Shown in pieces: positions 39,691 to 51,980 of a stretch of 64,000 nucleotides of DNA; the first letter of the stretch is position 1; each line of letters starts with the position of its first letter. This DNA comes from Bifidobacterium breve (GTDB lineage Bacteria > Actinomycetota > Acidimicrobiia > Acidimicrobiales > Acidimicrobilacustridaceae). The notes under the pieces are model-generated. The model did not search any database. It worked only from the letters and a program-made list of their open reading frames with translations, and was not told the origin of the DNA. The translations under genes and the position numbers were made by a program. The stretch covers positions 186,001 to 250,000 of the forward strand of contig CAMCTY010000001.1 in the NCBI GenBank assembly GCA_945878725.1. Direction: 5' to 3'.

Positions 39691-40041
39691 ATGGCCTCCG
39701 CCCCCGACTCCAGCCGAGCATGGTTGGTCCAAGGCGGAAATGTTCTGGCCACTCTCGAAGTGGCCGCTACCCGCTCCGAGCGTCGGCGCGGACTGCTAGG
39801 GCGTGATCGCGTCGAAGGTGTCTTGCATCTCGTGCCGGCGCGTTCGGTACACACATTCGGCATGCGGTTTCCGATCGACGTCGTCCATCTCGATGGCGAC
39901 CTCCGAGTGCTTCGGGTCCGGACGATGGTCCCCAATCGGTTGGGTGCGATCGTGTTTGGTTCACGATCTGTTCTCGAAGCTGAAGCAGGTGCCATGGAGC
40001 GTTGGGGCGTATCTGTCAGCGACCAACTCGAGATCAGATGA
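39691..40041 (+). CDS. DUF192 family protein
   Basis: 116 residues. RRRGLLGRD and SVHTFGMRFPIDVVHLD are the DUF192 signature; it forms a small beta-barrel whose function is not known to me. No signal peptide is seen here, unlike many relatives. The stop overlaps the start of rsmI (ATGA), so translation is coupled. Confidence 0.85.
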   Translation: MASAPDSSRAWLVQGGNVLATLEVAATRSERRRGLLGRDRVEGVLHLVPARSVHTFGMRFPIDVVHLDGDLRVLRVRTMVPNRLGAIVFGSRSVLEAEAGAMERWGVSVSDQLEIR

Positions 40042-40901
40042 GTAGCCCTGACTCAAGCCCGGGAAAGCTCGTTCTTGTCGGCACCCCGATCGGCAATCTC
40101 GGAGACATGTCCGAACGCGGTGCAGATGCACTGCGGCGCGCTGATGCAATCGCCTGCGAGGACACGAGGCGCACCGGTCGATTGCTCGCCCATCTCGGCT
40201 TTCGGACTCCAGCGCTTCTAGTTGTGAACGACCACACCGAGGAAGGCGCGATCGACGACATCCTCACCCGTCTTGGGCGAGGTGAACGGGTTGCTGTCGT
40301 CAGCGACGCGGGGATGCCGGGCATTTCTGATCCGGGCGAACGACTCGTTGTTGCCGCGTCCAACGCAGGGTTCGTGATTGAAGTCGTACCGGGCCCGTCG
40401 GCGGCGATCACCGGTTTGGTAGCAAGTGGGCTTCCCGCCGGCCGGTTCGTCTTCGAGGGTTTCCTGCCCCGCAAAGGTTCGGGCCGCACAGCACGTCTGG
40501 CCGAGATCTCCGCCGAGAGACGAACGGTCGTGCTTTACGAAGCGCCCCATCGTTTGGAGCGGACGCTCTCGGATCTGACGGCCGGATGCGGTGGCGAGCG
40601 TCGAGTCGCTCTTGCACGTGAACTGACCAAGATGCATGAGGAATTTTGGCGCGGCACGCTCGACGAGTCGCTCATTCGATGCGCAGAGATCGAACCGCGC
40701 GGCGAGTACGTGATCATCCTCGACGGAGCACCGGTACCCGCCGCGGCGACCGACGAAGATGTCCGGATCGCAATGCAACGGTCTATGACGAGTGGAAAAA
40801 GTACGAGGGACGCAGCAACTGAAGTTGCTGCGTCCCTCGGAGTAGCAAAGCGCAGGGCTTATGACGCGGGTTTAGCGCTCACATTGGAGAGTGAGGCGTA
40901 G
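40038..40901 (+). CDS. rsmI: 16S rRNA (cytidine(1402)-2'-O)-methyltransferase
   Basis: 287 residues. LVGTPIGNLGDMSERG, CEDTRRTGRLLAHL, VVSDAGMPGISDPG and VVPGPSAAITGLVASGLP are the tetrapyrrole-methylase-fold SAM motifs of RsmI. It adds the 2'-O-methyl of m4Cm1402 in the decoding centre. The ATG overlaps the DUF192 stop. The last 43 bases overlap the 3' end of the convergent surE-like gene, and the stretch 40804-40839 doubles as that gene's terminator. Confidence 0.95.
   Translation: MSSPDSSPGKLVLVGTPIGNLGDMSERGADALRRADAIACEDTRRTGRLLAHLGFRTPALLVVNDHTEEGAIDDILTRLGRGERVAVVSDAGMPGISDPGERLVVAASNAGFVIEVVPGPSAAITGLVASGLPAGRFVFEGFLPRKGSGRTARLAEISAERRTVVLYEAPHRLERTLSDLTAGCGGERRVALARELTKMHEEFWRGTLDESLIRCAEIEPRGEYVIILDGAPVPAAATDEDVRIAMQRSMTSGKSTRDAATEVAASLGVAKRRAYDAGLALTLESEA
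40804..40839 (-). terminator. Terminator of the surE-like gene inside rsmI
   Basis: A perfect 16-bp inverted repeat with a 4-base loop, followed on the minus strand by TACTTTTT. It starts 20 bases after the surE-like stop and lies wholly within the 3' coding part of rsmI. On the plus strand no T-run follows, so rsmI transcription should read through. Confidence 0.88.
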
Positions 40902-48705: not shown

Positions 48706-49467
48706 ATGCGTTGGATCGATGATCACTGCCATCTTGGCGACAGCGTGGAGGGCTGGCCAGGTCCCGCCGAAGCGCTCCTCGAGGCTCGGGCGGCGGGAGT
48801 CGAGCGGATGATCACCGTTGGGACCGATCTAGCCACCTCTCAGGTGGCACTCGATGTCGCCCGGGGCCATGACGGGGTATGGGCAACGGCCGGGGTGCAT
48901 CCTCATGACGCGTCTGGTGGGATCGACGGAATCGAGGCACTGCTGTCCGAACCGGAGATTGTCGCCGTCGGGGAGTGCGGTCTCGACTATCACTACGACC
49001 ATTCGCCGAGGGAATTACAGCGCGAGGTCTTCGCTGCGCAGATCGCCCTCGCTCATGCCCACTCGTTGGCTCTGGTGGTTCACACCCGTGAGGCGTGGGA
49101 CGACACTTTCGATGTTCTTCTCGCCGAGGGTGTGCCGGAGCGCACGGTGATCCACTGTTTCACCGGAGGTGCTGCCGAGGCAGCCCGATGCCTTTCACTT
49201 GGCGCGTATCTGTCGTTCAGCGGGATCGTGACCTTCAAGGGAGCCCCCGATGTTCGGGAAGCCGCACAGTTATGTCCGCTTGATCGGTTGTTAGTCGAGA
49301 CCGATTCACCATTCCTGGCTCCCGTTCCTCACCGCGGCAAGTCGAACAGGCCTGCACTTGTCACGCTGGTTGGCGCGGCGATTGCCGAGGTCAAGGCGAT
49401 TTCGGTTGAGACTGTGGCGGATGTCACATGGAAGAACGCGAATCTCGTCTACGGCCTGCCCTCGTAA
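48706..49467 (+). CDS. tatD: TatD-family metal-dependent DNase
   Basis: 253 residues. DDHCHLGD (first metal site), GVHPHDA, GECGLDYHYDHS, VVHTREAWDDT and ETDSPFLAP follow the TatD pattern. It is a 3'-5' DNase with roles in repair. The ATG lies 10 bases after metG. This metG-tatD-rpf-rsmA-ispE order is the actinobacterial norm. Confidence 0.94.
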   Translation: MRWIDDHCHLGDSVEGWPGPAEALLEARAAGVERMITVGTDLATSQVALDVARGHDGVWATAGVHPHDASGGIDGIEALLSEPEIVAVGECGLDYHYDHSPRELQREVFAAQIALAHAHSLALVVHTREAWDDTFDVLLAEGVPERTVIHCFTGGAAEAARCLSLGAYLSFSGIVTFKGAPDVREAAQLCPLDRLLVETDSPFLAPVPHRGKSNRPALVTLVGAAIAEVKAISVETVADVTWKNANLVYGLPS

Positions 49468-49492: not shown

Positions 49493-49599
49493 CCCCAAAG
49501 GCGTCTACGCCGGGGAAAATCCCCTCTGAAATGGGCTTTTTGGGTTGGGGACTGATCGTGGGCGAACCCGACAAAAGTTGCAGTCGGGTTACAGCCCAC
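49493..49599 (+). other. Structured gap between tatD and rpf
   Basis: Two inverted repeats. The first (49493-49515) pairs CCCC with GGGG around GGCGT/ACGCC; the GGGG can instead pair with CCCC at 49520-49523. The second (49558-49599) pairs GTGGGC with GCCCAC and ACCCGAC with GTCGGGT and encloses the -35 box of rpf. No U-run follows either, so they are not clear terminators; the second could be an operator. Confidence 0.6.
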
Positions 49600-49606
49600 C
49601 TAGCGT
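49578..49606 (+). promoter_or_regulatory. rpf promoter
   Basis: TTGCAG (49578-49583), a 17-bp spacer and TAGCGT (49601-49606), 6 bases before the ATG at 49613. This is the best complete promoter in the window. The -35 box lies in the loop of the 49558-49599 inverted repeat. Confidence 0.6.
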
Positions 49607-49612
49607 CTCCCC

Positions 49613-50299
49613 ATGGCTCCGGGCGGAGTCCACGGCGAATGCCTTCGGGCGTTCGCCGTTCTTTCGCCTTCAGCTGGTCCCTGTTGTCGAGAAAAGGACG
49701 TTGCTCTGTCTTCCACCGTGCATCCAACGCAACGCAGGCTAGCGATCGCTCTTTTCGCCACGCTGGCCTGTCTTCCGTTGTTGGTGATTGACATGTTCGG
49801 AAGCTCGAGCGGCGCGTCTGAAACGACTTCGACGGCTTCAGCCGTATCTGAGTCGAGTCTTGTGATGCAAGCGACGCCAGACACTTTCGACGTACAGGCC
49901 TCATTGGTGTTTGAAACGACAACTGTCCCGCCGCCCACGACGCTCCTGGCAGTTCCCGTACCCACCACGTCGGCTCCCAGAATCGTCCGGACCCCGCCGA
50001 CCACGGCTGCGCCGGTTTACGTGCCACCGCCGGTCCTTAATTCGTCCGATGAGGCCTTCATGGCCTGCATCCGTGAGCGTGAGTCCCACGGCAATTACTC
50101 CGCTGTTGACCCGTCCGGGCAATTCATGGGCGCCTACCAGATCTACCAAGGCGGCTGGGATTCAATCGCCAGATCGATCGGTCGCACGGATCTTGTCGGC
50201 GTAAGGCCTCACCACGCGTCGCCCGCTGACCAGGACACGGTTGCGTTCGCGATGCTCGCCAAACTGGGGCGTTCACCCTGGAATTACGCCTGCTCCTAA
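49613..50299 (+). CDS. Resuscitation-promoting factor-like cell-wall hydrolase
   Basis: 228 residues if the ATG at 49613 is used. A signal anchor lies at about residues 44-62 (RRLAIALFATLACLPLLVI). A Thr/Pro-rich linker follows, and the C-terminal 80 residues are the Rpf transglycosylase domain: FMACIRERESHGNY with the catalytic Glu, MGAYQIYQGGWD, and SPWNYAC with the paired Cys. It cleaves peptidoglycan and aids outgrowth. The GTG at 49718 is an alternative start: the first 35 codons contain a 12-bp UUCG hairpin (49632-49659) and read poorly as signal peptide. The position between tatD and rsmA equals that of mycobacterial rpfB, but DUF348 and G5 domains are absent. Confidence 0.88.
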   Translation: MAPGGVHGECLRAFAVLSPSAGPCCREKDVALSSTVHPTQRRLAIALFATLACLPLLVIDMFGSSSGASETTSTASAVSESSLVMQATPDTFDVQASLVFETTTVPPPTTLLAVPVPTTSAPRIVRTPPTTAAPVYVPPPVLNSSDEAFMACIRERESHGNYSAVDPSGQFMGAYQIYQGGWDSIARSIGRTDLVGVRPHHASPADQDTVAFAMLAKLGRSPWNYACS

Positions 50300-50332: not shown

Positions 50333-51235
50333 GTGACGCTCACCAGACGCGAGATCACGGCTCTCCTTGAGAAGCACGGTCTTTCCCCGAGTCGTGCGCT
50401 CGGCCAGAATTTTGTGGCGGATCCGAACACTGTTCGTCGCATTGTGCGCTTGGCCGAAGTGAACTCGGGCGATCACGTCGTGGAGGTCGGACCAGGTGTG
50501 GGATCGCTCACCACCGCACTTGCCGAGGTTGGTGCCCACGTGACGGCTGTTGAGTTGGATCGCCATCTTCTTCCCGTTCTTCGCGATGTTGTCGAACCCT
50601 TGGGAGTCCGGGTTATCTCGGGCGATGCCCTCACGGTTGATTGGACGGAGATTCTCGGAGATCACGACCGTTGGAAGCTCGTTGCGAACCTTCCGTACAA
50701 CGTGGCGACCACGATCGTGCTGCAGTTGCTCGATGATGTGCCGGCCATCCATTCAATGCTCGTTATGGTGCAACGTGAAGTGGGCGAGCGTCTTGCATCA
50801 GTTCCAGGATCAGGCGCCTACGGAATCCCGACGGTGAAGCTCGGGCTTTGGGCGACAGCGGAGGTTGTCGGTCGGGTGCCGGCGACAGTGTTCATCCCGC
50901 AACCCCGAGTTGAGTCGGTGCTTGTTCGCATAACGCGTCGGGACTCGCCGGCGGTGTCGGTCGATCATGACCAACTCATGTCGCTTGTGCGGACGGCTTT
51001 TGGCCAACGACGCAAAATGTTGCGTCGTTCGCTCTCGGGGATCGTGACGACTGAACAATTTGAGCAGGCTGGGATTGCCCCCGACGATCGTCCCGAACGA
51101 CTCGGGGTCGAAGCATGGGGAGCGCTGACCGAGATTGTGTTCGGCGAACCCGGGCCCGGTGTAGAGAATTCCGGTGCGAACGACGTAGCGGAGTACGAGC
51201 CCGGTCGTGACAGTGCCGACCGCCAGGAACAATGA
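50333..51235 (+). CDS. rsmA: 16S rRNA dimethyladenosine transferase
   Basis: 300 residues. SRALGQNFVADPNTV, VVEVGPGVGSLTTAL (SAM loop), AVELDRHL and NLPYNVAT (adenine-binding N-L-P-Y) are the KsgA signature. It makes the two m6,6A residues at the 3' end of 16S rRNA. The start is the GTG at 50333. ispE follows 7 bases on. Confidence 0.96.
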   Translation: MTLTRREITALLEKHGLSPSRALGQNFVADPNTVRRIVRLAEVNSGDHVVEVGPGVGSLTTALAEVGAHVTAVELDRHLLPVLRDVVEPLGVRVISGDALTVDWTEILGDHDRWKLVANLPYNVATTIVLQLLDDVPAIHSMLVMVQREVGERLASVPGSGAYGIPTVKLGLWATAEVVGRVPATVFIPQPRVESVLVRITRRDSPAVSVDHDQLMSLVRTAFGQRRKMLRRSLSGIVTTEQFEQAGIAPDDRPERLGVEAWGALTEIVFGEPGPGVENSGANDVAEYEPGRDSADRQEQ

Positions 51236-51242
51236 TCGGGAC

Positions 51243-51980
51243 ATGAATGAGATTCCCTCACCGGTCACCCGTCTCGTCGCTCCGGCGAAACTTACGATCG
51301 GTTTGCGGATCACGGGGATTAGAAACGACGGTTTCCATCTCATCGACTCGGAGATGGTGACGCTCGATCTACTCGACCGACTCGAGATTTCCGACGGCGA
51401 TTCTCTCGAAATCATCGATGACTCCACCGGATCGACCCGTGAAATCGGGGTTGGTGACGACAATCTCGTTCGTCGAGCTCTGAATTTGGTCGGGAGATCA
51501 GCCCGCGTTCGACTGTTCAAGTCGATTCCGCCAGGCGCCGGGCTCGGCGGGGGCTCGGCTGACGCTGCCGCCATTTTGCGCTGGGCAGGTTTCGACGATC
51601 TCGAAGCAGCAGCGGCCCTCGGAGCCGATGTCGCTTTCTGTCTGGTGGGGGGTCGTGCCCGCGTTTCAGGTATCGGCGAGATCGTCGAGCCTCTGGCCCA
51701 CGTCGATCGCACATTCACGCTCTGGACGCCACCGTTTGGCTGCTCGACGCCGGCGATCTATCGCGCGTGGGACGAGCTTGGTGGCCCCGAAGGCGACTTC
51801 GGGAACGACCTAGAAGCGGCTGCGCTTGTTGTCGAACCTCGGCTCGCGCAATGGCGCGACCGTCTGGCAGATATCAGCGGGCAACGACCGCGGTTGGCTG
51901 GCTCAGGTTCGACTTGGTTTGTGGACGGTGCCTATCCGGGTGACGGTCGAATTGTCGCTCACACGACTCCTCAAACCTGA
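51243..51980 (+). CDS. ispE: 4-diphosphocytidyl-2-C-methyl-D-erythritol kinase, compact
   Basis: 245 residues. APAKLTIGLRITG with the catalytic Lys, DGFHLID, PPGAGLGGGSADAA (GHMP ATP loop) and GADVAFCLVGG with the catalytic Asp are all present, as is LAGSGSTWF. It phosphorylates CDP-methylerythritol in the MEP isoprenoid pathway. It is about 40-60 residues shorter than usual, mostly by short loops and a trimmed C-terminus. The ATG is 7 bases after rsmA. Confidence 0.92.
   Translation: MNEIPSPVTRLVAPAKLTIGLRITGIRNDGFHLIDSEMVTLDLLDRLEISDGDSLEIIDDSTGSTREIGVGDDNLVRRALNLVGRSARVRLFKSIPPGAGLGGGSADAAAILRWAGFDDLEAAAALGADVAFCLVGGRARVSGIGEIVEPLAHVDRTFTLWTPPFGCSTPAIYRAWDELGGPEGDFGNDLEAAALVVEPRLAQWRDRLADISGQRPRLAGSGSTWFVDGAYPGDGRIVAHTTPQT

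Follow-up and report, generated by a model that had tools for sequence, protein, structure and literature searches.

The rpf gene in the window (the whole stretch of 64,000 nucleotides that was analysed) stands behind a conserved non-coding leader sequence, found before this one gene, the core of which is a box of 15 nucleotides, GGCTCCGGGCGGAGT. The box was identical and present in exactly one copy per genome in 23 of the 61 genomes compared, always just before rpf. We consider this leader element to be real and, as far as the open-licence literature shows, undescribed; no paper on an rpf riboswitch in Acidimicrobiia was found among the open-licence papers searched. We tentatively suggest that the leader is a clade-specific, cis-acting RNA that would act at the initiation of rpf translation. 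This reading could well be right, and we favour action as RNA because the invariant bases of the box are asymmetric and the constraint runs on into the coding region.

Rpf enzymes wake dormant actinobacteria and may harm the cell that produces them, and their control is therefore layered. A sequence-only reading of the window had considered it possible that rpf is controlled by a protein operator together with an attenuating hairpin that carries a UUCG loop. A conserved leader is indeed present, and an early hairpin is plausible, but the most conserved part is the 15-mer and not the UUCG hairpin. The genes in this part of the window follow in the order metG, tatD, rpf, ksgA and an ispE-like gene (Table 1), and the 251-nt gap between tatD and rpf, folded as RNA, lies 4.5 standard deviations below its shuffles.

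Table 1. Features of the rpf locus in window coordinates
Feature	Position	Strand	Remarks
tatD, upstream neighbour of rpf	48706..49467	+	PF01026
Nested inverted repeat around the -35 element	49558..49599	none	Not conserved; specific to the window genome
Direct repeat GTTGC-N6-GTTAC, 11-nt period, over the -35 element and spacer	49577..49592	+	MtrA-like candidate site
-35 element TTGCAG	49578..49583	+	GTTGC invariant in 23/23 box genomes
-10 element TAGCGT	49601..49606	+	TANNNT in 23/23, 6-8 nt before the box
Invariant box GGCTCCGGGCGGAGT at the predicted transcript 5' end	49615..49629	+	23/61 genomes
Possible 5'-terminal hairpin GGCUCC-GGGC-GGAGUC (conformation a:b)	49615..49630	+	RNAalifold consensus
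12-bp stem with UUCG loop	49632..49659	+	Sequence differs in relatives
Predicted partner strand of box nt 49621-49628 in alternative fold b:c	49662..49669	+	MFE, first 60 nt
Shine-Dalgarno (SD) sequence AAGGA, 7 nt before CTG	49694..49698	+	SD-like sequence in relatives
rpf coding region from the conserved CTG	49706..50299	+	PF06737, transglycosylase-like domain; start by conservation
First 25 rpf codons	49706..49780	+	Extra constraint at synonymous sites in relatives
ksgA, downstream neighbour of rpf	50333..51235	+	PF00398
ispE-like GHMP kinase gene, downstream neighbour	51207..51980	+	PF00288

Distribution of the box

Rpf was searched for in the 61 genomes, 46 of which gave a match, and upstream regions were compared. 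All genomes with the box fall in one family, in its genera g1, g4 and g8, which contribute 25 genomes to the set. Of these 25, 23 carry the box; in one of the two others there was no rpf match (G017), and in the second the contig ends inside rpf (G018). In a KsgA tree of 21 rows, the 17 rows with the box lie together on one side of a branch with support of 99/96. The distance from the box to the CTG described below is 80-91 nt in the 23 genomes and occurs in all three frames, and in 4 of the 23 an in-frame stop lies at the end of the box or beyond it. The box is therefore not coding, nor does the Rpf protein include a translated leader, since the frames differ and stops intervene in some genomes. 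No upstream ORF is conserved in the leaders of the relatives. One that would start after the GGAG of the box was considered and rejected, as five of the leaders (L037, L039, L040, L051 and L052) hold no candidate start.

When one mismatch was allowed, the 37 genomes of the family gave scattered single matches that did not exceed the reversed control in GC-rich genomes; the sole one of them that was inspected, in L076, looks like coding sequence. A profile of promoter and leader, run under strict filters that may lose weak matches, was searched against 397 genomes of the order and gave E values below 1e-10 in ten genomes, all of family f1. The next match was G026 (2.6e-6), a genome outside the box clade with a diverged form of the box at the same place and a short leader. 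By eye, six of the seven matches that follow lie in sequence apparently unrelated to rpf, and the seventh (L099) resembles an rpf promoter but lacks the box. This search of 397 genomes showed no further convincing member. A scan of genome contigs for the box gave 21 stretches, among which the context was inspected individually for L057 alone, a planctomycete record in which it is apparently unrelated to rpf; the scan of viral contigs returned 0. Behind a similar promoter, G022 and G024 have, as read by eye, apparently a very short leader or none.

Some single records deserve a separate mention. A locus of genus g7 (L020) has a diverged box, TGCCTCGGGCGGAGT, in which the 3' strand is kept and the 5' strand is not, together with a short leader and an apparent ATG start. 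Three records labelled Bifidobacterium breve or Acidobacteria (L061, L070 and L073) carry this actinobacterial rpf leader and may be mislabelled.

Promoter, start codon and constraint at synonymous sites

The -35 and -10 elements of the window are separated by a spacer of 17 nt, and from their position transcription would start at about 49613, 1-2 nt upstream of the box. A strict sigma-70 promoter scan listed nothing at the rpf leader region.

The start of Rpf had been left between an ATG at 49613 and a GTG at 49718, and the comparison points to neither of them. Rpf most likely starts at a third site, the CTG at 49706-49708, because this codon is kept in the Rpf frame behind an SD-like sequence, 6-9 nt upstream, in 23/23 box genomes, whereas the ATG is not preserved among the relatives and the GTG is replaced in several of them and lies 19 nt from the SD. 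Two leaders (L052 and L053) argue for the same site: an in-frame stop lies 15 nt before the CTG with no ATG, GTG or TTG between them, and the next such codon past the CTG would cut off a conserved N-terminal stretch. The CTG is thus kept across three genera.

Conservation extends into the reading frame beyond what the protein sequence accounts for. In the 12 genomes of g1 (group A), the count was restricted to codons at which the encoded amino acid never differs. Third positions were invariant at 13/21 such codons among the first 25 of rpf, compared with 2/34 later in the gene (Fisher p 1e-5), and the ksgA control gave 1/22 at its start and 14/169 later. The window and L036, its nearest relative, likewise agree at 20/22 same-amino-acid rpf codons in the first 25 and at 81/130 later (p 0.007). 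Within group A, pairwise identity reaches 1.00 for the box, 0.96 for leader nucleotides 60-71, 0.92 around the SD and 0.97 for the first 30 coding nucleotides, compared with 0.68 far upstream.

Predicted folding of the leader RNA

The sole consensus structure that RNAalifold returned across the 23 leaders is the 5' hairpin formed by the box. In folding of the growing transcript, this hairpin has a probability of about 1 at 20 nt and of 0 at 60 nt in 23/23 leaders, and by 60 nt the models instead pair the 3' strand of the box with later nucleotides around a middle hairpin, again in 23/23. When nucleotides 16-60 of 16 representatives were shuffled, the 5' hairpin was likewise lost in 25-75% of cases per sequence (mean 52%); its loss in all lineages by chance has a product of about 0.01 if six lineages are treated as independent. 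In these models, re-pairing of the box downstream thus appears to exceed what shuffling predicts, though not overwhelmingly. In the window itself, the pairing of 49662-49669 with the box is weak by duplex energy.

Complementarity to the rest of the leader gave a combined z of -4.3 for the SD and -2.6 for the box in 14 representatives, not all of them independent; for the window alone, the values are -0.5 and +1.4. SD-leader complementarity is strong in parts of group A, in L051 and in L037. The models give no support to a simple switch in which the 5' hairpin governs the SD: when the hairpin was forced or removed in the 23 leaders, the openness of the SD rose in 3, fell in 3 and stayed within 0.05 in 17, so that it moves in no consistent direction. 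The middle hairpin has a z of -4.0 in the window and -4.6 in L036, and is mostly ordinary compared with shuffles elsewhere. The leaders of these two differ by 10 substitutions, and by eye the four that were read as paired all retain pairing.

Covariation cannot prove the pairs of the box because the box never varies. In an extended fold of group A, 95% of the cells pair and changes are one-sided only, with 0 pairs changed on both sides; the all-leader consensus likewise holds 0 double changes. By eye, two double changes were seen in hairpins of L052-L054, the arms of which the automatic alignment does not line up. A covariance model of group A matched the other lineages weakly and on both strands, and the predicted folds of the full leaders differ between relatives. 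We put forward switching of the leader as a hypothesis, which the modelled folds of some relatives fit better than those of the window do.

The UUCG hairpin of the window is present as described in the sequence-only reading, directly before TCTTTC, and its arms (49632-49643 and 49648-49659) form 11/12 Watson-Crick pairs and one U-G pair. It is unlikely to result from composition alone, since dinucleotide shuffles predict 0.2 hairpins with at least 11/12 pairs and a 4-nt loop and the window holds such hairpins at 3 places. Attenuation by termination is not indicated, as the hairpin lacks a terminator-like tail: TCTTTC is not a U-run, and the terminator scan gave 0 terminator-like sites at the leader.

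Other hairpins were noticed in the window. A second one with at least 11/12 pairs and a 4-nt loop lies inside ksgA (51004-51031), and a perfect 16-bp stem with a TGAA loop occupies 40804-40839, within the coding region of the ORF 40002-40901, which by its appearance is presumably RsmI-like.

Proposed action of the leader and alternative explanations

If the leader acts as RNA, the following sequence of events can be proposed. Transcription would start 1-2 nt upstream of the box, so that the RNA would begin with a small 5' hairpin, which may serve as the recognition element for a ligand or an RNA-binding protein. Once the RNA has grown to about 50-60 nt, the box could give up this hairpin and pair through its 3' strand with downstream nucleotides, enclosing a hairpin whose sequence varies; the strand that captures the box could, in several relatives, mask the SD as well. 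Rpf would be initiated from a weak CTG codon, and the state of the 5' hairpin would set access to this start, keeping the lytic enzyme low until it is needed. A further-reaching form, in which the leader is an undescribed riboswitch-like or protein-bound RNA that has the 15-nt 5' hairpin as its recognition part, controls initiation at the CTG and represents a third, independently evolved rpf leader control, is possible but somewhat unlikely.

Control by an MtrA-like response regulator that represses rpf from the 11-nt direct repeat in the promoter is about equally doubtful, and it could coexist with the leader element. MtrA has been reported to repress rpfB in M. tuberculosis, and passages of the same papers describe MtrA repeats with a period of 11 (PMC7843721, PMC6265350, PMC13189361). 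The rpf promoter of the window has a direct repeat of the same period, but its first half site is GTTGC and not GTNAC, and the repeat is missing in most box promoters: GTTGC-N6-GTNRC occurs in only 8/23 and is absent from all 12 group A genomes. The strict promoter version was found in 5 of the 37 family genomes, once in each and always at an rpf promoter, but the repeat is not enriched genome-wide (7 sites compared with 13 for the reversed control). The window genome also encodes an mtrA-mtrB-like pair (L123:2618-4815), the products of which score 278 of 300 bits (MtrA) and 212 of 450 bits (MtrB), both under the curated cut-offs. We retain MtrA-like control at the promoter as a putative second layer.

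A DNA operator at +1, bound by a dedicated transcription factor, is a conceivable although unlikely reading of the box; a repressor sitting there would block initiation or promoter clearance. The dyad CTCCG-GG-CGGAG with its 5-bp half sites, the single site per genome and the location directly after the -10 element would all suit an operator. Against this, the asymmetric positions of the box (the GG at the 5' edge, the central GG and the T at position 15) show the same invariance as the symmetric ones, and T15, together with C or T at position 16 in 21/23 genomes, fits G-U or G-C pairs and not a DNA dyad. An operator would also leave the constraint in the end of the leader and in the 25 codons unexplained, and the spacing of the box to the -10 element varies by 2 nt.

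Less likely still is a leader that senses nothing, the hairpins of which would only protect the 5' end or, with the CTG, fix a low rate of translation. Such a role would agree with the low mean openness of the SD in the predicted ensembles (0.21), where it is largely paired, and with the presence of CTG in 23/23 genomes. However, hairpins that only add stability would have no need of 15 bases kept unchanged in three genera, while other positions of the leader do vary.

The nested inverted repeat around the -35 TTGCAG had itself been considered as a possible protein operator. It is present exactly as described, with outer arms GTGGGC (49558-49563) and GCCCAC (49594-49599) and inner arms AACCCGAC (49565-49572) and GTCGGGTT (49583-49590), and composition alone is unlikely to account for it, since shuffles of the whole window with dinucleotides preserved give 0.1 nested repeats of such kind compared with 3 places in the window, this one included. 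Its pairing is lost in relatives, which speaks against the operator: the window has 14/14 matches (inner 8/8, outer 6/6), L036 has 9/14 (5/8 and 4/6), and the other 21 box genomes have at most 8/14 (0-5/8 and 0-4/6). From this comparison, we regard the repeat as private to the window genome. That it is a protein operator, or an RNA hairpin in read-through transcripts from tatD, is very improbable: it is statistically unusual within the window and, by eye, 3/5 of the changes in L036 can still form G-U pairs, but conservation stops at L036 and the repeat lies upstream of the predicted start of transcription.

A divergent c-di-AMP (ydaO) riboswitch, the known control of rpf in Streptomyces as described in a passage of PMC9960051, has an almost negligible probability: although a diadenylate cyclase (DAC) domain is encoded (90.6 bits, cut-off 27), which speaks of potential only, RF00379 matched neither the window nor the six relative loci nor any of the 61 genomes (0/61) while two control genomes did match, and the leader from box to start measures about 91 nt compared with a model of 134 positions. 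A search of Rfam with gathering and permissive thresholds gave no credible match to any family in the window or the six relative loci.

Relation to known leader systems

By position and gene order alone, the nearest known system appears to be the RNA switch in the 5' UTR of M. tuberculosis rpfB. According to passages of Schwenk et al. 2018 (PMC6009663), that leader also lies between tatD and rpf, with ksgA and ispE downstream, and leads to a non-ATG start behind an SD, which is TTG in M. tuberculosis and CTG here. It has two promoters and an intrinsic terminator with poly-U, whereas in our leader no terminator was found and an invariant 15-nt box is present; its authors describe the switch as limited to some pathogenic mycobacteria (PMC6009663). 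As described in passages of PMC9960051, ydaO riboswitches (RF00379) precede Streptomyces rpfA and Corynebacterium nlpC/rpf1, which is likewise leader control of actinobacterial cell-wall hydrolases, suggested to be translational in C. glutamicum; the window and the 61 genomes differ in having no match to this family.

The leader, if it works as proposed, can further be set beside translational attenuators. Since these systems use mutually exclusive stems, the likeness would lie in an anti-SD strand and a competing 5' strand that can be drawn in several relatives; unlike in such attenuators, the stems here are not consistently predicted and are weak in the window. If the leader works as RNA, it adds to the two systems from the literature, so that leader control of rpf would have at least three separate origins. 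The box would then also offer a defined target of 15 nt with which the signals for resuscitation in uncultured Acidimicrobiia could be sought.

CRP-like palindromes were seen by eye upstream of rpf paralogues in other genera, in L025 (for example TGTGACGCTCTTCACA) and in L026.
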